DNA from: Branchiostoma floridae
Taxonomy: Eukaryota > Chordata > Leptocardii > Amphioxiformes > Branchiostomatidae
DNA length: 64,000 bases
Reading direction: 5' to 3'
Assembly (NCBI RefSeq): GCF_000003815.2
Contig: NC_049981.1
Span: 19,202,583-19,266,582 of the forward strand
Shown here: positions 12,307 through 56,007 of the stretch, piece by piece
How the letters are laid out: the number at the start of each line of letters is the position of its first letter
Position numbering within the stretch: the first letter of the stretch is position 1
The notes under the pieces: generated by a model
Seen by the model: only the letters and a program-made list of their open reading frames with translations
The model's database searches: none
What the model was told of the DNA's origin: nothing
Translations under genes and position numbers: made by a program

Positions 12307-15300
12307 ATGGCAAAGCCAAGGGTCTTCTTCGACATTACCGCCGATGGTGCACCACTGGGGCGTATTGTTATGGAGGTGAGTTACAGAATTTGCTCCGTTT
12401 TCAGATAAACGTCTTGGAAAAATTAAGTGGCATGGGCGCTCATGGCGACACCACGCCTGGATAAGACCCCGTAACTGTTACATGCCCTCAGCGTAAATCT
12501 ATGGTGAAATTATCGTCTTAACTGGAATGTCCGATTTCCTAAAGCGTTGCAATTACGGACTGCAACGATATCGAGGTCTTCGGGGAAAGATTATCAGTTT
12601 TGATGCAGGATTATGTGGAAATTTTCATATCATTTGTGTTCGCGATTTTGTATTTCCCTTTCACGCCCGGTCTTTTTGCATGACTTCATTTTGCCCCCAA
12701 AAAACTAACCCTACCCTCATAATTTGGTAGGATGCAAAAATATTTGAAAGGTGGGAACATATTTTGCGTGAACGGAAGCGCAATTTCCAATTTTCTCACT
12801 AAACAGGTCGTTTCAGTGTTTTTGTTCAGTAAAACTAAAAGTGGACCATAGTTTTTCGCTACATCATAGTACATGTGACTGTCTGGTCTTTTCTGCTGTG
12901 ATTTGCATAAAAAGCGTCTCCTTTTTGTGGCCCTCGGGCACACCACACTCCTTCATGCGGTTTCATACTTAATTTCTTGCTGCAAGAATTTCACGGCTAG
13001 AAATCAAAGACCACTGTTTCGAGATTTTAGACTTCTGCAAATTCTAATTACCGTCTATGTAACGAGGAGAGATAGGAGATTGAAGCCCACCCACTCAAAA
13101 AACTGGGGCCATTGAAAGGGATTTGCAAAGATGTTTTGGCAACGCTCCAAGGGCGGGGACAAAGCAGAATTATGTCAGTAGTCACCCCAACTACTACTGG
13201 ATCTTACAGTAGCTGTTGAAAAGGAGATTTTAACACCTGGATAGATGCAGTGCTATAGTGCCCATCCACTGAAAATGAGGCCTTGGAAGGGGGTTCATCA
13301 TGAAATGACTTGGCACTGCTCCAGGGGTGTGGGTACTACTACTACTAGTACTAAGGTGTGGGCCAAGTGAACAGATATTGCCCTTCAAACTGTGCAAAGT
13401 CAATGCAATGGATCTTTCAAATTCTTCTTCAAATTGCAGTAGCAGTTCTAATGGAATTTTTTGTTTTAAGAAGCATGGCTGTAATACCTTTTACTAAGCG
13501 AATAAGTGAGGATTGTTCATGTCACAGCATCTACACAAGGACCACATTGTGAGCACTTTTTGGTAGTCCCTTACACAATTTGTCCTATTGATTCAAGGAT
13601 TAAGAATCCTGTCAATGGTGACAGACCACCTGTTCACATACACATCACCAGATCTGATCAGTCCCCAGAGTGGTCATCTATGGTAGATATGACTGTGAAT
13701 ATGTAAGTAAACAATGAAACATGTTGGCTGGCTGTTTTCACCTGTTAACTTGTTAAATCACCAAAATCATGATTAGTGGAAGAAAGATGTTGGATCCCAT
13801 GTATGTTGACTAACTAGGAATGTCTGACAAGCACCAGCCAATCTGTACCTGTGTTTGATGTTCTGTGATTGTTTGTTTTGCAGCTCCGAGCTGATGTTGT
13901 CCCCAAGACGGCAGGTAAGACATGGACTTGATTGATTGATTGCCATGCAATATCACTGGTGGCTTTTCTAACTTGTTGCCGCGACCCCCCTGCAGTAGTA
14001 TGTGTGCCACATACATTACAAACAGGGCTCTATCCGGTGCAATGGCCGAGTGGGTAGAGCAGGGTGTTCGCCNNNNNNNNNNNNNNNNNNNNNNNNNNNN
14101 NNNNNNNNNNNNNNNNNNNNNNNNNNNNNNNNNNNNNNNNNNNNNNNNNNNNNNNNNNNNNNNNNNNNNNNNAAGACGGCAGGTAAGACATGACTTGATT
14201 GATTGATTGCCATGCAATATCACTGGTGCTTTTTCTAACTTGTTGCCGCGACCCCCCTGCAGTAGTATGTGTGCCACATACATTACAAACAGGGCTCTAT
14301 CCGGTGCAATGGCCGAGTGGGTAGAGCAGGGTGTTCGCTTTGCATTCAGTAAGTTATGAGTTCGATCCCCAGCCCAGCCCAGTCATACCAAAGACTCTAA
14401 AATAGTAAAAATGGTACATGCTGCTTTCTCTGCTTAGCACTCGGCACTAATGAGGAAGAGTATTGAAGTTTAACACACATCACTACCAGTGGACCAGCCC
14501 CTTCCTGTAGTGGCTGGTCCAAGGGCTACTCGAAATGGAGATGGGTATCTGCACAGATTTTCGGGCAACTCAAACTTTAAACTCTAGCCAGCTCGAAATT
14601 TTTATCCGTCAGTCAATTCTCATTGTCACGAAAACCGCAAAAGTTAATTTTCATTATGACACTACAAAATAGTAGATTTTGTTATTGATATAGAATAAGA
14701 TGCCACGCAGTCACGCTTACATTTTGTACTACCCCTTTGCCCCGACCAGTGCTATCTGCAGCACGGCGGAAGAATAAATTCGTTCATAGAAGAAATGTTG
14801 GACGTAAAAACAACAAGTAGTACTTTGCTTTCCTTGTGATATGAGTTTTGAGGCCGCAAAACCTCCAAAGTGGCACAAATTGAGATGGTAGACAACACTC
14901 GAAACATGGCAGTAACGAGAAAAAAACTGTTTAAACCGGACTTGAACCAAACCATTACGTTTACTGTCGGCAGGGACATCCTCCCTAGATCATAAGGAAT
15001 GTCTTACTACAGTAGAAGACTTGACAGTAGTAGTTGTTGTCTTGATACCCTTTGTCCTGTTTGTAACTACATGAGAAGTTATCTTGTGCAGAATGTTTCT
15101 CAAGCATCTGGATAGATATTGCTAACTGAACTGTACCTTGCATAACTTACTACCTGGATATCTAATCTCCATGTAGGTATTAGTGTGTGCAGTTTTACTC
15201 TGCAGCAGTCTCTGCCACATTGTGAATTATACTTAATAGCTTCTACCTTTTTCTCGTCCAGAGAACTTCCGCGCCCTATGCACTGGAGAGAAGGGTTTTG

Positions 15301-22061: not shown

Positions 22062-23555
22062 ATGATGCAAAGTACAGAGGTAAAGGCGAACTACACTTTC
22101 CAAGAGCCCGTACCCCTGAGACGAGCACGTGGAACTGTACTGGAAGAGATCCAGACGGAAACACTGAAACTGCAATACTTTTCACATGAGTATGGCGAGG
22201 TTCCCATTCTCTTCGGCTACTTGAGCGTCCGCTCGCAGGATGAGACAGAAGACGTCATCAACCGCATTTTGGCAATGTTTGAGGAGGAAAAAGTCATTTT
22301 GCTTGCGGAACGAAGAGACGGCCCGGTCGGTCCGCGTACCTACCTCCACTCCAAGTACTCCGACCTCCTCAAACAGGCCTGCTGCTGTTGCTGGAAATTT
22401 CAATTGGATCAAAACAACCCATTGGTCAAGCGGGTTCTGACGTTCGACGTTCTCCATAGCGACGAGAATACGATTTCGCGTCTGATTCGCGTCATCAACG
22501 ACAAGACTAATGGGTATAATCTGGGCCTCCTGACGCGCTGGTACCTCAGGCAACTTCAGAAGAAGTTCAAGTACTTCGTAGGGGTGGCGGCGAACACCTG
22601 GTTTGATGACAGATTGGGTGAGAGGCTACGACTGGTCAATCAGTTAGAGTCACCTTGGGAGTTCAGCTACTTGCACCTTGCCTCCTTTTGTACCCACCCG
22701 AAGCTGATCGCCTTGCTCCTCCGGCACGGTGCGGACCCGGACCGCGGATCACCCCGCTTCGGTCGGCGGTGCCCAGTGGAGTACCTCTTCCTCGCTATGT
22801 GCTGGGACGTGTACAAGGTTAGGTGACAGCAAGTATATGTTATGAATGACATCATCTGCGGACTAAAAAATTTAAGAGAGAGGGCGAAAAAAACAAGATG
22901 TGTAGAAAAAACTAGATATCTAACATTAGATTTTCAAAATAGACACCATGAACGTTAAAACAATTGAAGCTGGCAACAAAACGTGGTATCACAGCCAAGA
23001 AGTCCTTTATTTCTGTATTCAAGAGGTACACGTGTGTAGTAGACGTGTGTAGTAGTAGTGCGGTGTTATTTACCAAGTTGACAGCTACAGTTATGGCTAC
23101 CACATTGGGCACGCACACTTCCCAATACGTGTGATAACGAAAAATAACAATGTAAACTGCCATTATAGAAGAAAATGTTGCATAGAGGTCAAAAGTACAT
23201 CATGTATTCTAGCATCTCTGTATTTCTGAAGGGTCGTGATGACTGTGCCTCCCGTGTCCGGCGCTGCCTACGGATCTACTGCCGAGCCATGCCGAAGATC
23301 CCGCTACAGATCCCGTCCTTCCATGACCCGAGCGACTCGGACAGCGACTCGGAGCCGGACCTGCTAGCCGTGCCGCACGCCCGGTGGAACTCTTGGGTGC
23401 CCCGGAACAGGTGCACCAACCCCTGCGAGCTCAAACACCTCTGCAGGTGTCTCATCAGAAAGCTTCTGCAGGACAACGGAGTACTGCCAGGGGGCGTTTA
23501 TCAACTCAAGCTGCCGACACTCCTGCAGAAATATCTCGACTTGCTCCATGATTAG
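22062..23555 (+). CDS. Ankyrin-repeat and SOCS-box protein (ASB-like), two exons
   Basis: SOCS-box proteins recruit Elongin B/C and Cullin-5 to ubiquitinate partners; ankyrin repeats usually bind the target. Exon 1 is 22062-22822, preceded by an in-frame TAG at 22035; exon 2 is best read as 23213-23555, giving 367 residues. An alternative junction, 22817 to 23232, also keeps the frame (359 residues). Residues about 203-236 (YLHLASFCTHPKLIALLLRH then GADPD) form one clear ankyrin repeat; earlier repeats are weak or absent. After an acidic Ser/Asp run (DPSDSDSDSEPD), residues about 325-365 form a SOCS box: ELKHLCRCLIRKLL (BC-box pattern L-x3-C) and LPTLLQKYLDLL (Cullin-box position, second Pro missing). 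The stop codon TAG is completed by a transposon's first base. I cannot assign a specific ASB orthologue. Confidence 0.8.
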
Positions 23556-44354: not shown

Positions 44355-44672
44355 ATACAAAACAGGTTACTGGTATATCTGAGTACATGTAGGCAATGTG
44401 ATGCATGCTGACACGTGTTCCTGATCCCTAACCCTACATTATGGAGGCCTCTCCTCTGATGTCTCAGAATCACACACTGGCAGCCATAGCTTCTGACACA
44501 GTGCTATACATCAGAGTTATGGTGCCATCCGTAATGGTCCAGGCAGCTGAGTGCTCTCCACCACCCAAGGCAAATGTGTTCTATTCATACTGGCATGGCC
44601 TCTTGTGATTGGTCCAGGTGTGGTCACATGACCTGTTTGAAGGCCCAGCACCCATGGTGACATGTACCCTCA

Positions 44673-45020
44673 TGTTGGACGCCCGTTTGAGGCACTTGAC
44701 ATGGTCGCGTAAAAAAAAGATTAAAAAATCGCGGTGGCCCAAATCAGGCTATCAAAGGTGTCCTCGTAATCCCCACGAGTTGTTCTATCGCCTACAGTAC
44801 TCGTGTTGATTCAAATATTATTTCGGGATGAGATTTGAAGAGTCAAAGTTAGCCTTCAAACTGGCTCTTTATGCCTGTTTTTGGCCTCGATTTCGCACTG
44901 CATGGGGTTTTCCGTGCAACCGATTACGATCATATACTTCCGGGTCGTACGAGTGAGGTCATTGAACGCGGGTCACCAGGTATCTTGACGGTCTCAGTCT
45001 GCGCTAGGTTCGGTAGAGGA
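44673..45020 (+). repeat. Left terminal inverted repeat of the 5.4-kb element
   Basis: Pairs with 49745-50083. Strong identity over the first 115 bases; farther in, matching islands include GTCAAAGTT, GATTTCGC/GGTTTCGCC, GCATGGGG, TTCCGGGTC and GAGTGAGGTC. Divergence between the arms indicates that the insertion is not very recent. Confidence 0.75.
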
Positions 45021-45197
45021 GGATTCAAGTCAGGCTTATGCATATTGTTAAATTAGGTTTGTTAAGGGACTCTTGGCGAAAGTATGTTTGAACTTGCAGA
45101 ACGTTTTTTAAGTTTGTGTTTGTTCGTATCGTCTCGGCCCACGTTGCGAATCTGCAACGGTTGTAAGATCCCTTCCGAACGAACTAACTGGCATTCT

Positions 45198-47460
45198 CGT
45201 AGACATCAGGAGACAAACTGTGTTAATTTGAATAACACACTTATAGAACAGTGCTGTAAGAAGTGTATACAGGGAACTAATAGCGGAAAACGTGTTCGGG
45301 AGACCTCCTTGGGGAGACAAACTGTGTCAATTTGAATGACACACTTACATAATAGCGCCGTAAGAACTGTATGTAGCTTAACTAATAGCGATAAACGTGT
45401 TTAGGAGACAAACTATGTCAATTTGAATGGCGCACTTACATAATAGCGCCGTAAGAACTGTATGTAGCTAACAAATAGCGAGAAACGTGTTCAGGAGACA
45501 AAATGTGTCACTTTGAATGACACATTTATAGAACAGCGATGTTAGACCTGTATATAGCTATTAAGTAATCGCGTATTCAGGTGTCAAACTGTGCCAATTT
45601 AAATGACACGCTTATAGAACAAAGCTAAAAGAACTGTATATAGCTAACTAATAGCGGAAAACGTGTTCAGGAGTCAAACTGTGTCAATTTGAATGACACA
45701 CTTACATGATAGTGCCGTAAGAACAGTATATAGCTAACTAGGAGCGAAAAACATGTTCAGGAGACAAACTGTGCCAATTTGAATGACACAATGCATTATA
45801 GAATAGCGCTGTAAGAACTGTATATAGTTAACTTGAAGCGGATGCGTGTTCAAATGTCAATCTATGTCAATTTGAATGACACACTTGTAGACAGCGCCCA
45901 AAGAACTGTATATAGCAAACTAATAGCGAAAACGTATTCAGGAGACAAACTGTGTCCATTTGAATGACACACTTATGGAACAAAGCTGAATGAACTGTAT
46001 ACAGCTAACTAATAGCGAAAAACGTGTTCAGGAGACAAACTGTGTCAATTTGAATGATGCATTCATAGGACAGCGCTGTAAAAAAAACTGTATATAGGTA
46101 ACTTAAAGTGTAATGCATATGCGTGTTCAGGAGTCCAACTGTGTCACTTTGAATGACACACTTATAGAACAAAGCTGAATGAACTGTATATAGCTAACTA
46201 ATAGCGAAAAACGTGTTCAGGGGACAAATTTATTGTGTCAATTTGAATGATGCAATCATAGAACAGCGCTGTAAGAACTGTATATAGCTAACTTAAAGCG
46301 CAATGCGTATTCAAATGTCAAACTGTGTCAATTTGAATGACACACTTATAGAACAAAGCTAAAAGAACTGTATATAGCTAACTAATAGCGTAAACGTGTT
46401 CAGGAGACAAACTATGTCAATTTGAATGACACACTGACATAATAGCGCCATAAGAACTGTGTATAGCTCACTAATAGCGAGAAACGTGTTCAGGAGACAA
46501 AATGTGTCACTTTGAATGACACATTTATAGAACAGCAATGTAAGACCTGTATATAGCTAAGAAATCGCGGAAAACGTATTCAGGTGTCAAACTGTGCTAA
46601 TTTGAATGACACACTTGCAGAACAAAGCTGAATGAACTGTATATAGCTAACTAATAGCGAAAAACGTGTTCAGGAGACAAATTAATTGTGTCAATTTGAA
46701 TGATGCATTCATAGAACAGCGCTGTAAGAACTGTATATAGCTAACTTAAAGCGCAATGCGTGTTCAAATGTCAAACTGTGTCAATTTGAATGACACACTT
46801 GTAGAATAAAGCTAAAAGAACTGTATATAACTAACTAATAGCGGAAAACGTGTTCAGGAGTCAAACTGTGTCAATTTGAATGACACACTTACATAATAGT
46901 GCCGTAAGAACTGTATATAGCTAACTAATAGCGAAAAACGTGTTCAGGATTCAAACTGTGTCAATTTGAATGACACACTTACATGATAGTGCCGTAAGAA
47001 CTGTATAGAGCTAACTAGGAGCGAAAAACATGTTCAGGAGACAAACTGTGTCAATTTGAATGACACAATGCATTATAGATAGCGCTGTAGAACTGTATAT
47101 AGTTAACTTAAAGCGGAATGCGTGTTCAAATGTCAAACTGTGTCAATTTGAATGACACACTTGTAGACAGCGCCCAAATAACTGTATATAACAAACTAAT
47201 ACCGAAAACGTATTCAGGAGACAAACTGTGTCAATTTGAATGACACACTTACATAATAGCGCCGTAAGAACTGTATATAGCTAACTAATAGCAAAATACG
47301 TGTTCAGGAGACAAACTGTGTCAATTTGAATGACACACTTATATAATGGCGCCGTAAGAACTGTATATTGCTAACTTAAAGCGGAATATTAATGCGTGTT
47401 CAGAAGTCAAACTGTGTCAATATGAATGACACACTTACATAATAGCGCGGTTTAGGCAGC
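45198..47460 (+). repeat. Forward array: about 25 monomers of roughly 90 bp
   Basis: Each monomer reads GTTCAGGAGACAAACTG, then TGTGTCA-ATTTGAA-TGACACA, CTTACATAATAGCGC, CGTAAGAACTGTATATAGC and TAACTAATAGCGAAAAAC. I count 25 dyads. Monomer types differ (AATAGCGCCGTAAG, AACAAAGCTGAATG, CAAATGTCAAACTG) and whole runs recur: 45508 onward reappears about 1.0 kb later, and 45614-45910 reappears at about 46800-47170. These look like unequal-exchange duplications. Confidence 0.92.
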
Positions 47461-48540
47461 GCTTTTCTGCAAGTGTGTCAGACAAGTTCTAAGGTCCCTT
47501 CTTACGAACTAAATGGCGTTCCTTCGTATATATATGACTTTAGGTGTGGTTATTTCATATCAATTAACAACTGATTACTGGAGTTTGGACCATGGTAGGG
47601 TTTAAAGTAACTGAAATACTAACTTGTTCAAGTAAACTGTCAAATCTAGTAACTGCGCTGTCTGAGCTGAAAACTGTGTCAATCATATGACACACTTTTG
47701 AAACGCATAATAACTATCTTATGACGGAAAACTCGCTCTGCCAAAAACTTTTTCAATCGAATGATTATACGATTTAGGCATATCTATTCAGTTTGCTAGT
47801 TTGTCACATTAATTGACACAATAGTTTATAACAGAAAACTTTGTCAGGAGGACGGCTTTGCAATTAATAACCGAGTGTTAAACAGTATAAAACTGCCTCA
47901 TGACGGAAACTTTGGTGGACAACTGATCATTAAACAGTATTAAACTGATGGAAGACTTGGTCGGGACGACAACTGTGTCAATTAACAAGTTTTTTTAAAA
48001 CTTATTAAAATTTCACAAAACGGAAAACCCTCACGGTCAGGACGACAACTGTATCAAATGACAGAAAACCTTGTCAGGAGGACAACTGTTATTTCATATG
48101 ACACACTATGAAACACGATGTGAAATCAGTGTAAAATTGTCTTGATGGCGGGCGACTTTTTCAGGAGGGAAATTGTGTGAATGTGTCTGACACCTTTGTA
48201 AGCGATGTTTGAACCGTGTCTTAAAAATGGAAAACGTTTTTCCGGGGGACAACTGTGTCAATCTATATCACCCACAATTAGAAAAGCGCTGTTTAACGTG
48301 TGCAAAATTGATCACGGAAAAAGTTGGACAGTAAAGAATTTGTGTCAATTTATATGACACTGGTAAAAAGTGTACTTTTGGCTGTACCTAACAACTTTAT
48401 TGCTGAAAACGTAGTCAAAAGCACAGCTGTGTCGATTTGTTTCGACACATTTGTAGAATAGCGCCGAACGTATAGTATACAAATGTATGACTAAATCTTA
48501 ACGGCTAATGTGTTCAGGACACAAAACTGTGTCAATTATA
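47460..48540. repeat. Decayed middle of the element with relic dyads
   Basis: Fragments such as CTGTGTCAATCATATGACAC, TTGTGTCAATTTATATGACAC and GGAAAAC..CAGGA recur irregularly, evidently old monomers. Orientation becomes mixed. This central part separates the two arrays and contains no long ORF, so the autonomous coding region has been replaced or lost. Confidence 0.6.
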
Positions 48541-49560
48541 TACAGTTCTTAGAGCTTTGTTCTATAATGTGTCATATTGACACAGGTAGTCTTCTGAACA
48601 CGTTTTTTGCTTTACGTTTGATATATACAGTTCTTACATACATCGCTGTTCTATAAATGTGTCATTCAATTGACACAGTTTGTCTCCTGAACACTTTTTC
48701 CGCTATTAGTTTGCTATATACAGTTCTTATTGCGCAATCTGCAAGTGTGTCATTCAAATTGACACAGTTTGTCTCCTGAACACTTTTTCCGCTATGAGTT
48801 AGCTATGTACAGTTCTTATTGCGCTATCTGCAAGTGTGCCATTCAAATTGACACATTTTGTCATCTGAACACTTTTTCCACTATTAGTTTGCTATATACA
48901 TTTCTTATTGCGCTATCTGCACGTGTGTCATTCAAATTGACACAGTTTGTCTTCTGAACACGTTACACTTCGCTATGAGTTAGCTATGTACATTTCTTAT
49001 TGCGCTATCTGCAAGTGTGTCATTCAAATTGACACAGTTTGTCTTCTGATCACGTTACACTTCGCTATGAGTTAGCTATATACATTTCTTATTGCGCTAC
49101 CTGTAAGTGTGTCATTCAAATTGACACGTACAGTTTGTCTCCTGAACGCTTTTCCGCTATGAGTTAGCTATGTACAGTTCTTATTGCGCTATCTGCAAGT
49201 GTGTCATTCAAATTGACACATTTTGTCTTCTCACGTGACACGTTTTGCGCTATTACATGTAGCTAAATAACGTTATAGTTCTTACTGTTCTGTAAGTCTG
49301 TCATTCAAATTGACACAGTTTCTCTTCTGAACACGTTTTTCGCTATTAGTTAGCTATGTACACTTAATGCAGCGCACAACGGTCCTTTAGATGTGTCATT
49401 CAAATTGACACAGTTTGTCTTCTGAACACGTTTTCCGCTACAAGTTAGCTATATAACGTTACAATTCTTACGGCGCTATTTTTTGTGTCATTCAAATTGG
49501 CACAGTTTCTCTTCTGAACACGTTTTTCGCTATTAATTAGCTATATACTGTTCTGATCTT
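48540..49560 (-). repeat. Reverse array: about 11 monomers of roughly 90-95 bp
   Basis: The inverse of the forward monomer: AGTTAGCTATATACAGTTCTT, GTGTGTCATTCAAATTGACA and GTTTGTCTCCTGAACACG. I count 11 dyads. Several monomers share ATTGCGCTATCTGCAAGTG, absent in the forward array, so the arrays have evolved separately after inversion. Confidence 0.9.
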
Positions 49561-49744
49561 AGTTAATCCCTCAGTCAGGCGCGACTGTCGGGTAACGTTA
49601 CCTACAGTTCACTTTACCCACGACGCAACCTATTGGAATAACACCTTACAGATCATAGTGCTGTCTTATACTTCAAAGACATTTCAATATTACTTCGTAA
49701 CATGATAAAACGCTGACAGCACCATCAAAAGTACTTGTGTACTA

Positions 49745-50083
49745 CACTACCGAGTGAGGTCCCGAGTGACTGCCGCAACGGTATAGCGTGACCCGGAAAC
49801 AGTTGAACCTCGCCCACTAAGCGGACACCCCGAAACCCCCATGCGGTGCGTATTTCGGCTTGGAAACAATGGCGAAACCATAGGAAAAAGCTGTCGAAAA
49901 TCGGTCAACTTTGACATTAGATATATACTTTCTCGTAAAAGTCCATCGCTTGAGATTCACAAGGCAGATAGAACAACTCGTTGGGATTACGAGGACACCT
50001 TTGACAGCCTGATTTAGCCCACCGCAATTTTTAATCTTTTTTTTTACGTGACCATGTCAAGTGCCTCAAACGGGCGTCCAACA
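49745..50083 (-). repeat. Right terminal inverted repeat of the 5.4-kb element
   Basis: Inverse of 44673-45020. The last bases, GTGCCTCAAACGGGCGTCC then AACA, mirror the left end exactly over about 28 bases, and the match continues through TACGTGACCATGTC, TTTTTTAATCTTTTTTT-like and GAACAACTCG with small differences. Confidence 0.75.
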
Positions 50084-50651
50084 CTCAGCCCAGCATTACC
50101 AGCTATCTTTTGGCATCGCAACACAGAGTTTGCATTTTTTTAGTCAATACTGCTGCCAAAAAAGCCTCGGCCTTTACTCAAATATTCAGGCCATATGATT
50201 GTTTCTTGTGCTGATAGCCTTATAACATCAACGTGGGGATTGACTTGCGTTTATCTGGTTTATAAGGCTGCTGTTATTTTATGATGAAAGTGTCAAGTTT
50301 GTAGCATACTGCATTACTGGCACATGTACTGTATTCTGGAGAAGTTTTCAAGATAAAACAGTCTTAAGTCTACTCTCCAAGCAGAGGTTATTAGGCTCTT
50401 GCTTTTGTGGGGATTTTTATTTTTGCCAGGTTTTCTTTTTGGACCAAAAGATATCACAAACGAGCCAGAGCCTAACATCTGTTTGGTGAGTAGTCTACAG
50501 TCAAGTGTAGTGCAGATTAGTCTACAGTCAAGTGTAGTGCTGATGCAGTGCAAGAAGTGATGGGACGTGTTGAAAGTCAGGCCACTAGGGCCCATTTTAA
50601 ACATCAAATTTCGTGACATTGGGATAAGGGAGAACGTTTTACACCTTGTAA

Positions 50652-53429: not shown

Positions 53430-53478
53430 GTAGCTTTGACTCCTGAGGAGACTGACGCAGGTTGCCTGCTGGATCACC
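53430..53478 (+). other. ZNF800: ZNF800 5' UTR part of the coding exon, with splice acceptor
   Basis: TTCCTGTGTTTCAG ends at 53429, a strong 3' splice site 49 bases before the start codon. An in-frame TGA at 53437-53439 excludes an upstream in-frame start within this exon. At least one non-coding exon must therefore lie upstream; the CpG-rich block at 33.6-37.35 kb is the best place in the window. Confidence 0.65.
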
Positions 53479-56007
53479 ATGGCCGAGGCTGCTGACTACG
53501 CCCTTCTGCAGCGGCCTGTGCCATCCAACCAGACAGGGGTGCGCCAGATCATTGAATGCTTCACTGCTGGCACAGAAGACATCAAGCGGCTGCTGCTTCA
53601 CGAGGCAGACGTGATCCTGGAGTGCCGAGTTTGCCGCAGTCTGTACCGAGGTCTGCTCAACTTCGTGTCCCACAAACAGGAATACTGTGCCATGCCCTTC
53701 AGCGAATATGAACAGCAGCGACTTGGTATGTCTGGGACTGGGTCGTACTTCATGGACACACCCATGGCTCCAAAAGCAGACACATCTGCAGAGACGTCAA
53801 TCACAGACAGTCTCTTACAGGGGGAAAGTCTTGTCGTGGTGTTACCTGAGCCGCCACCTGATGACCCGCAGCCTATTGTTGGCTCTGCAGCTGAGAACTA
53901 CAGTATAGAATTCCAGTCCATCCCAGGGACATCCCAGGCTGTCTACCAGAGGGTGACCAGGCCAAAATTTGTCGCGGGATCAACCCCAAACAGTCGTAGC
54001 CCTGAAAACAGTAGCAGATCAGGCAAGTTCGCAAAGATTAGTCCACCGGAATGCACCACATCTGACTACGATCCCATCCGGGCATACTGTCGCCTGTGCG
54101 ACAAGACCTTCTCCTCTCGCCGCAACGTGCGCCGCCACATGGTGGAAGTTCACAAGAAGACCCTCCCCGGCAGAACAATCATTCCAAGTAAGAGTGGGGA
54201 CTTTGATCTGGAAAAACTGATTTGTCGCCTCTGTAAGAAAACCTTCATCTCAAAACAGAGCATCAGACGACACATGGTGGAGCATCACGGCAAGTCACTG
54301 GAGATAGAGCCATCCACAGGAACTGAAGAGAAGACCACCTCCCCATCATCCTCTACATCCTCAAAGTCTGAAGAAGAGCATGACAGAGACACAAAGAAAG
54401 GCGAAAAGAAAGATGATGATGATGGAAGGGAAGAGGAGGAAAAAGACAATGAAAATCATGCTGCAAATGACAAGGACAATGACTCTTCTTCTGACAGTGA
54501 TGAAGAAGATGATGAAGAAAGTGACAAGGACAATGATGAGGAGAATGATGCAGAAAGTGTATCAAAAGACTTAAAGGTTAAACAAAACATGTGCCAGCAT
54601 TGTGACAAAGGTTTCAGTAGTAAAGACACCTGGAAGAAGCACATGGTAGATGTTCATGGTCTGGACCCCGATGGTGATGATCCCGACAAAGATTCAGAGG
54701 AGGAAGATGATGATGATGATGATGATGATGACGATGACGATGATGATGACGATGATGAGGATAAAGATCAGACAACACCATCTCGTCCGCCCAGCACGAG
54801 CTCAAGTGGCACACCTAAACTCCGCAGCAGCTATGACATGGATCGGAAGTGCTGCATTGTGTGTGATCGCTATTTCACCACGAAGAGGAACCTTATCCGC
54901 CATATGGTAGACGTCCACAAGAGACCTATGTCACAGTTTAAGATTGGTGCTGAATATGACAAGCTGCTGTCTCACTGTGATCTGAAGCGAAAAATGTGTC
55001 TCATCTGCAAAAAAGTGTTTGCATCCAAGAGGAACACCAAAAGGCACATGGTAGATGTTCACAAACAGCAGCCCAGTGTGAAGCTGCAGAAAGACAACGG
55101 TCCTGAATCCTCCAGCTCGGAACCATCGACTCCTACTGAAGAGAAGCCAGCGGGTAAAACAACAAAGCTGCAGGCAAGCTATGATTTGGAGAAGAAGGAA
55201 TGTCTCATCTGCAAGCGCAAGTTCAGCAGACAGCTCAACCTCCTCCAGCACATGAATGCCCATGGTCGCCCAGTCAAGTTCTTCCGCTGCCCGTTCTGTG
55301 CATACGAGACGAGGGAGAAGCGCCACGTGCTGCGCCATGCTGGTAGCGTCCACAAAAAAGGCCCAAAAGACCTGCAAAAGATTCACACCAGTTTGAAAAC
55401 ACGGGCAGTCATGCGCATGATTGGTCCTGATGGCAAGGTAAAGCCCATGGTGCAGCCAAGCTCAAAATCAGAGACTGAGAATGGGAATGGGAATGAGGAA
55501 AACGCCCCTGCTACAGGAAACGAGGTAAAGATATCAGAGGCTTTGACCCTACACAAGTGCAATGTGTGTAAGCGGGCATTTGCCAACAAGGGGACATACT
55601 GCAAGCATATGAAGTGGATGCATGGCAGAAACATCAAGCAAGAAGAAAACTCTGCAAAGAAAGAAGAACAGACAAATTCTTCTACCAAAAAAGAAAAGGA
55701 AGGCCATGAAAAACAGAGCATCACCAGCCAGTCTGCAGGGTCAAAGAAGTCTGGAACAGGTGTGACCAACAAACAAGAGGAGAACTCTGCCAAGAAAGAG
55801 GAACAGACAAATTCGTCTACCAAAAAAGAAAAAGATGCACATGAAAAACCGAGTATCACAAACCAATCTGCAGTGTCAAAGAAGTACGGGACAGGTGTGA
55901 CCAAAATCATGGATGTACCGAACTTGAAATGCCTGAAGTGCAACAAGAAGTTTAGTGGACCACAGGTGCTACAAAGACATGTGCGACTCCACATGTCTCA
56001 GGACTAA
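53479..56007 (+). CDS. ZNF800: ZNF800-like C2H2 zinc-finger protein, 842 residues, single coding exon
   Basis: Nuclear C2H2 protein; in vertebrates ZNF800 acts as a transcriptional regulator. The N-terminus (VRQIIECFTAGTEDIKRLLL and ECRVCRSLYRGLLNFVSHKQ, then EYC at 70) is the ZNF800 signature, including a C2HC-type finger (C49, C52, H65, C70). Classical fingers: residues 204-225, 249-270, 372-393, 459-480, 507-528, 575-595, 604-625, 694-715 and 818-838. The seventh (CPFCAYETREKRHVLRHAGS) with the KIHTSLKTRAV that follows also matches ZNF800. Most fingers share the KRHMVDVH ending, so they arose by internal duplication. Acidic runs (residues 297-360 and 400-430, including an Asp stretch) separate fingers. 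The start is the first ATG after an in-frame TGA, in CACCATGG context. A 45-residue Lys/Glu-rich tandem duplication precedes the last finger, which I do not recall in human ZNF800. Confidence 0.92.
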   Translation: MAEAADYALLQRPVPSNQTGVRQIIECFTAGTEDIKRLLLHEADVILECRVCRSLYRGLLNFVSHKQEYCAMPFSEYEQQRLGMSGTGSYFMDTPMAPKADTSAETSITDSLLQGESLVVVLPEPPPDDPQPIVGSAAENYSIEFQSIPGTSQAVYQRVTRPKFVAGSTPNSRSPENSSRSGKFAKISPPECTTSDYDPIRAYCRLCDKTFSSRRNVRRHMVEVHKKTLPGRTIIPSKSGDFDLEKLICRLCKKTFISKQSIRRHMVEHHGKSLEIEPSTGTEEKTTSPSSSTSSKSEEEHDRDTKKGEKKDDDDGREEEEKDNENHAANDKDNDSSSDSDEEDDEESDKDNDEENDAESVSKDLKVKQNMCQHCDKGFSSKDTWKKHMVDVHGLDPDGDDPDKDSEEEDDDDDDDDDDDDDDDDDEDKDQTTPSRPPSTSSSGTPKLRSSYDMDRKCCIVCDRYFTTKRNLIRHMVDVHKRPMSQFKIGAEYDKLLSHCDLKRKMCLICKKVFASKRNTKRHMVDVHKQQPSVKLQKDNGPESSSSEPSTPTEEKPAGKTTKLQASYDLEKKECLICKRKFSRQLNLLQHMNAHGRPVKFFRCPFCAYETREKRHVLRHAGSVHKKGPKDLQKIHTSLKTRAVMRMIGPDGKVKPMVQPSSKSETENGNGNEENAPATGNEVKISEALTLHKCNVCKRAFANKGTYCKHMKWMHGRNIKQEENSAKKEEQTNSSTKKEKEGHEKQSITSQSAGSKKSGTGVTNKQEENSAKKEEQTNSSTKKEKDAHEKPSITNQSAVSKKYGTGVTKIMDVPNLKCLKCNKKFSGPQVLQRHVRLHMSQD
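54705..54765 (+). repeat. ZNF800: GAT/GAC trinucleotide run inside ZNF800, encoding poly-Asp
   Basis: About 18 consecutive Asp codons (residues 410-427), mostly GAT with some GAC, between fingers 3 and 4. The mixed codons reduce slippage. The run also generates long antisense and shifted open frames here, which should be ignored. Confidence 0.9.
55636..55905 (+). repeat. ZNF800: 135-bp tandem duplication inside ZNF800 coding sequence
   Basis: Residues 720-764 and 765-809 are copies of one 45-residue unit starting KQEENSAKKEEQTNSSTKKE and ending SKK.GTGVT. They differ at about seven residues (for example EGHEKQ versus DAHEKP). Exactly in frame (2 x 135 bp), between fingers 8 and 9. Confidence 0.92.

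Follow-up and report, generated by a model that had tools for sequence, protein, structure and literature searches.

Foldback transposons that carry tandem arrays, such as Tetris of Drosophila virilis (PMC4079207), are an already known kind of element, and so are site-specific DNA transposons such as Dada (PMC3706591). Two further systems bear on the locus described here. Ginger1 and Ginger2, both reported from the lancelet Branchiostoma floridae, have terminal inverted repeats (TIRs) of about 40-270 bp and 50-180 bp, respectively, and target CCGG or CCGT/ACGG (Ginger1) and RTATAY (Ginger2) (Bao et al., 2010; PMC2836005). In lancelets, the zinc-finger protein YY1 binds the TIR of the ProtoRAG transposon and interacts with its transposase (PMC7481187). 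Here we analyze a stretch of 64,000 nucleotides of B. floridae contig NC_049981.1 (RefSeq assembly GCF_000003815.2, positions 19,202,583 to 19,266,582 of the forward strand; hereafter the window), which holds one copy of a foldback element at 44673-50083. An original prediction, made from the letters of the window, had described this element as opposed arrays of ~90-bp monomers bounded by a CTCA target duplication, and had assigned it to Ginger. The main new result, which goes beyond that prediction, is a YY1-like motif that lies in the flanks of most of the insertions examined, at a fixed distance from the element end.

The family is recognized by its ends. In the 513-Mb assembly (431 contigs), the 20-mer TGTTGGACGCCCGTTTGAGG occurs 69 times with at most two mismatches, versus no occurrence of the reversed control pattern; this search, of the kind proposed by the original prediction, yields many copies with common boundaries, as expected of the non-autonomous, foldback-like DNA transposon with satellite-like arrays that it foresaw. 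By pairing of ends, at least 29 copies have both ends and flanks (a copy at C341:1-8372, at a contig end, is excluded from the 29), and further copies are one-ended. Exact 4-bp duplications flank 19/29 copies and exact 5-bp duplications 2/29, while among non-partner ends, which serve as a control, 4-bp agreement is seen in 5/812; CTCA can thus be taken as a real target duplication. The 19 exact 4-bp duplications are diverse in sequence and the flanks of eight joined sites show no similarity to one another: as in other foldback-type elements, a mobile family has left target duplications at independent sites.

What do these sites share? Flanks were read outward from 65 ends of 37 elements, 29 of them two-sided and eight one-sided, the latter including a relative at C11:8074823; one flank of C13:16485800, where the end is damaged, was omitted. 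CCAT is found at offset 15 in 25/65 ends and just once at the twelve offsets 3-14 together; counted by element, it is present in 25/37 (22/29 two-sided and 3/8 one-sided). The longer word GCCAT lies at offset 14 in 20/65 ends, as opposed to 6/5,828 at other positions, for which longer flanks were used. The 25 aligned rows spell CCGCCATNTTGG at offsets 12-23, and the motif begins 8 bp past the duplication. CCAT is invariant in these rows through row selection; outside it, there is bias toward G at offset 14 (20/25), T at 20 (17/25) and 21 (18/25), C at 12 (15/25) and 13 (14/25), and G at 22 and 23 (13/25 each). The motif fits YY1 over about 12 bases, beyond the core too, and, judged by its letters, matches the YY1 motif given as CGCCATNTT and GCCATCTTG (PMC7481187). 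It stands beside the left element end at 17 insertions and beside the right end at six, with two unassigned. The insertions are site-selective, most elements sitting at one set spacing from the motif. Some copies depart from this rule: the motif is one base further out at C12:4552248, perfect at offset 7 beside a damaged end at C16:19073222, and at offset 30 at C2:27199411; CAGCCAC occupies offset 12 at C8:3365509; neither side gives a clear match at C8:23601481 and C6:24893249; and no motif stands on the side seen at C13:16485800, at four other one-sided copies or at the relative. Start codons were also considered as the true target and found no support: frames that open at the ATG of the motif and continue across the reconstructed empty site are 3-50 codons long (26 rows, counted where the flank is long enough to close the frame).

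The same offset, fixed beforehand from the first family, was then read in a sister family with ends TGTTGACCGCCGAAAAGAGGCAC (end sequence TGTTGACCGCCGAAA), which is seen at five loci and is 84% identical to the right subterminal region of the element over 133 bp. Here, CCAT lies at the preset offset in 3/6 ends (2/5 copies) and at none of the other offsets 0-21, an outcome with a chance of ~1e-6 if the ends are independent. The sister family carries a 105-bp tandem array that shares with the ~90-bp monomer a core of 23 columns, 21 of them identical (score 34; top of 200 shuffles 27). Its single complete copy, on C3, is 3,101 bp long with a CCTG/CCTG duplication and contains one array (Tandem Repeats Finder); one of its ends resembles the right end of the window copy and the other the left (70.6% over 282 bp). 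In the stretch of this family on C7, a frame of 224 aa has no Pfam match at 0.1. At about position 375 of a fetched stretch, the sister end region reads CAAGATGGCC, by eye a YY1-like site inside the element.

Which protein could read such a motif? A single YY1 locus is present in the genome, and its two pieces match the human zinc fingers at 96% and 97% identity; the other finger matches listed, from the 150 of 3,685 candidates that were scored, are 42-60% identical over the aligned part. The likeness of the motif, together with this one conserved locus, points to YY1 as the candidate reader and to integration that may depend on it. Because the spacing is exact, a rigid complex is favored, whether the transposase is tethered to YY1 or recognizes the motif directly.

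The copy in the window is built as follows:

44654-44660, minus strand: flanking target motif, YY1-like; in the outward direction it reads TCACCAT (5/7 to CCGCCAT), at a distance of 12 bp from the end of the element
44669-44672, no strand: left target site duplication, CTCA, 4 bp
44673-50083, plus strand: whole foldback element, 5,411 bp
44673-44793, plus strand: left TIR, begins TGTTGGACGCC
44794-45208, plus strand: left subterminal non-array region (element positions 8-373 are 86% identical to a 371-bp piece of another repeat)
45209-47452, plus strand: forward array, 25 monomers of ~90 bp
47453-48423, plus strand: central spacer, decayed array
48424-48515, plus strand: lone forward monomer
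48531-49556, minus strand: reverse array, 12 monomers
49557-49961, minus strand: right subterminal region, similar to the sister family as given above
49962-50083, minus strand: right TIR
50084-50087, no strand: right target site duplication, CTCA

Inverted ends and inner tandem repeats in opposed orientation give the element its foldback character. The ends are about 122 bp long (their alignment covers 121/122 bases), and the first 117 bases are 91% complementary without a gap; ends that are inverted rather than direct rule out a long terminal repeat (LTR) element or solo LTR. Tandem Repeats Finder reports 90 bp x 23.5 at 45313-47448 and 92 bp x 10.7 at 48572-49554, and a single-sequence profile scan resolves 25 forward monomers, 12 reverse ones (the original prediction had counted about 25 and about 11) and the lone forward unit. 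The spacer of ~1 kb matches decayed monomers, and no stop-to-stop frame in the window copy reaches 110 aa. A dyad, TGTGTCA-N7-TGACACA, is one of the best conserved segments of the monomer. A covarying hairpin is not claimed for it: among 628 distinct monomers there are only 10 compensatory double changes, every one of them at the same pair, and shifting the pairing by -1 or -2 left an equal or larger number of unchanged cells.

This plan is a property of the family. In 20 stretches of ~10 kb, each holding a left end, and in the window copy itself, forward array, spacer and reverse array are all present. Array sizes vary, with 25/12 monomers in the window and 27/10, 17+3/25 and 44+3/22 elsewhere, several of the fetched stretches being cut or containing Ns. 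All 29 two-sided copies have the array, 18 of them (the window copy and fetched stretches) seen directly and 11 judged from genome-wide array matches. The family looks young because the first 536 bp are 96.0-99.8% identical among 21 copies (mean 98.2%). Monomer order is broadly collinear among the compared copies, with blocks gained and lost. In the window copy, forward monomers are closer to forward than to reverse ones, so the two arrays appear to have evolved apart for some time. At C11:8074790-8078000, a related end TGTTAGACGCCC (the relative at C11:8074823) is followed by four monomers only and then by unrelated sequence; this locus is a truncated or older relative. The 371-bp piece that matches the element's left end at 86% identity lies in a 1.8-kb repeat, and this repeat stands in tandem (98.6%) at C4:25922500-25927500; a pattern from this piece finds dozens more exact genome copies, and the left end thus seems to have been captured by another repeat.

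Elsewhere in the window, 53440-56007 holds an open frame of 855 aa that encodes C2H2 zinc fingers (Pfam) and contains a 135-bp tandem duplication within its coding sequence; the open frame at 23169-23552 has a Pfam SOCS box and is probably the terminal exon of a host gene; and, by the frame list, an N run at 13810-14382 is flanked by near-identical sequence.

We think it probable that these are non-autonomous foldback transposons and that the transposase moving them integrates with a set spacing from a YY1-type site. A young family would be moved in trans, presumably by cut-and-paste; integration would make a 4-bp, sometimes 5-bp, staggered cut, and the cut would be placed by a reader of the YY1-type site CCGCCATNTTGG to one side. 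The motif would begin at a distance of 12 bp from the end of the element and 8 bp beyond the duplication, and either end could face it. The simplest reader would be host YY1 as a member of the integration complex; an identical pattern would result if the transposase had a DNA-binding part like that of YY1. The opposed arrays would be old and inherited, expanding and contracting by blocks of monomers, perhaps through unequal exchange or slippage; they are probably either a multi-site protein platform or tolerated passengers. A more specific version can be put forward tentatively, as something quite possible: YY1 would act as a ruler, with the complex docking on it at CCGCCATNTTGG and cutting 8 bp away, and the homologous arrays would serve as a protein-loading platform.

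Could the motif instead mark where insertions survive, rather than where they are made? YY1-type sites are common near gene starts, and promoters rich in them might be places where insertions persist. Yet the enrichment is confined to one base-exact offset and one orientation, with GCCAT at offset 14 in about a third of the ends and almost nowhere else; exact spacing of this kind makes the survival reading disfavored and very hard to credit. A stronger alternative is that the transposase reads CCGCCATNTTGG with its own DNA-binding domain, host YY1 being uninvolved and the likeness to its motif a matter of convergence or mimicry. Direct recognition would produce the base-exact spacing that is found, and the Dada paper argues the same point for direct readers (PMC3706591); against it, the agreement with YY1 extends outside the core, and the top YY1-like fingers among the matches listed (150 of 3,685 candidates scored) belong to the YY1 locus itself. 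We regard it as possible, if rather doubtful.

The remaining alternatives concern the origin and fate of the element. A non-autonomous derivative of Ginger1 or Ginger2, as in the original prediction, would account for the TGTTG..CAACA ends, which fit TGTNR..YNACA, for the TIR of ~122 bp and for the 4-bp duplications, all in agreement with the published description, and both groups are reported from this species (PMC2836005); end pattern, TIR length and duplication length are, however, partly common to other TG..CA elements (PMC10045372). The target does not follow: CCGG, CCGT and ACGG are found in 0/19 exact duplications and RTATAY, by eye, in 0/19 rebuilt targets, and a YY1-like site is there instead. 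Since the target preferences are absent, the Ginger label is left with end pattern, TIR length and duplication length; 5-bp duplications occur in 2/29 copies, and no Gypsy-like integrase came to light from the frames of the window copy or from a search for partners by shared ends, which did not extend to a genome-wide scan with an integrase model. The assignment thus loses ground and now looks unlikely. The suggestion that the arrays seed free satellite DNA fares worse still. It would suit a modular plan of the same kind as that of Tetris (PMC4079207) and the related locus that is reduced to an end and four monomers; genome-wide, however, there are at least 489 array matches, and all of those listed (~150) lie, in our reading, inside element copies, with the caveat that heterochromatin may be absent from the assembly. 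We find no support for seeding and judge it quite improbable.

The proposed YY1-spaced integration has its own difficulties. CCAT at offset 15 is absent in 12/37 elements, including 7/29 two-sided ones; the motif beside the window copy is weak, with 5/7 bases; 8/29 copies have no exact duplication; and two of the three CCAT matches in the sister family come from the single C3 insertion. The transposase was not found: no autonomous relative or other partner sharing these ends was recovered by searches that did not include an integrase model, and a relaxed inner-end pattern (128 matches) returned, among those listed, mainly the family itself and the 1.8-kb repeat. A genome probe made of a YY1 site, 12 bp and TGT, whose last letter excludes the element's own family, gave 214 matches versus 175 for the reversed control, so no broad class of YY1-spaced insertions stands out; none of the eight matches fetched (8/214) resembles the element or another of the eight. 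Finally, YY1 left ProtoRAG target choice unchanged (PMC7481187).

If YY1 does act as a ruler, a eukaryotic DNA transposon would here integrate in a base-exact, factor-guided manner at loci that are otherwise unrelated. Landing at a set spacing from a motif of the transcription-factor type would give a DNA transposon another route to regulatory DNA. Tethering of the transposase can be put to the test, since the partner it predicts is one conserved gene whose motif is known and whose DNA-binding domain has been solved (1ubd). The copies, young and countable, also form a natural archive of the growth and shrinkage of foldback arrays. Among the literature matches listed (titles and abstract starts), there is no description of YY1- or factor-guided transposon integration, and those on foldback, satellite and lancelet elements, covered to the same depth with Repbase and Dfam outside the search, hold no description of this family.

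How, then, does the family compare with the systems it most resembles, as far as the available parts of their descriptions go? Tetris is likewise non-autonomous and without an open reading frame, with a flanking end domain, a middle domain and inverted tandem repeats whose number varies; it differs in its 8-10-bp duplications, its ~220-bp units and its additional free satellite arrays, and a target motif is not noted in the parts covered (PMC4079207). Ginger1 and Ginger2 share TGTNR ends, 4-bp duplications, TIR length and presence in B. floridae, whereas their CCGG/CCGT or RTATAY targets are absent in this element (PMC2836005). ProtoRAG offers a precedent for lancelet transposon machinery that interacts with YY1 via GCCATCTTG; its YY1 site, however, is within the TIR, its ends contain CACTATG, its duplications are 5 bp, and its site choice does not respond to YY1 (PMC7481187). 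Dada, the strictly targeted case, is also a DNA transposon that inserts at a set position relative to a sequence, but it makes 6-7-bp duplications and hits multicopy snRNA and tRNA genes (PMC3706591); the loci hit by the present family are otherwise unrelated and have no more than a YY1-like motif in common.

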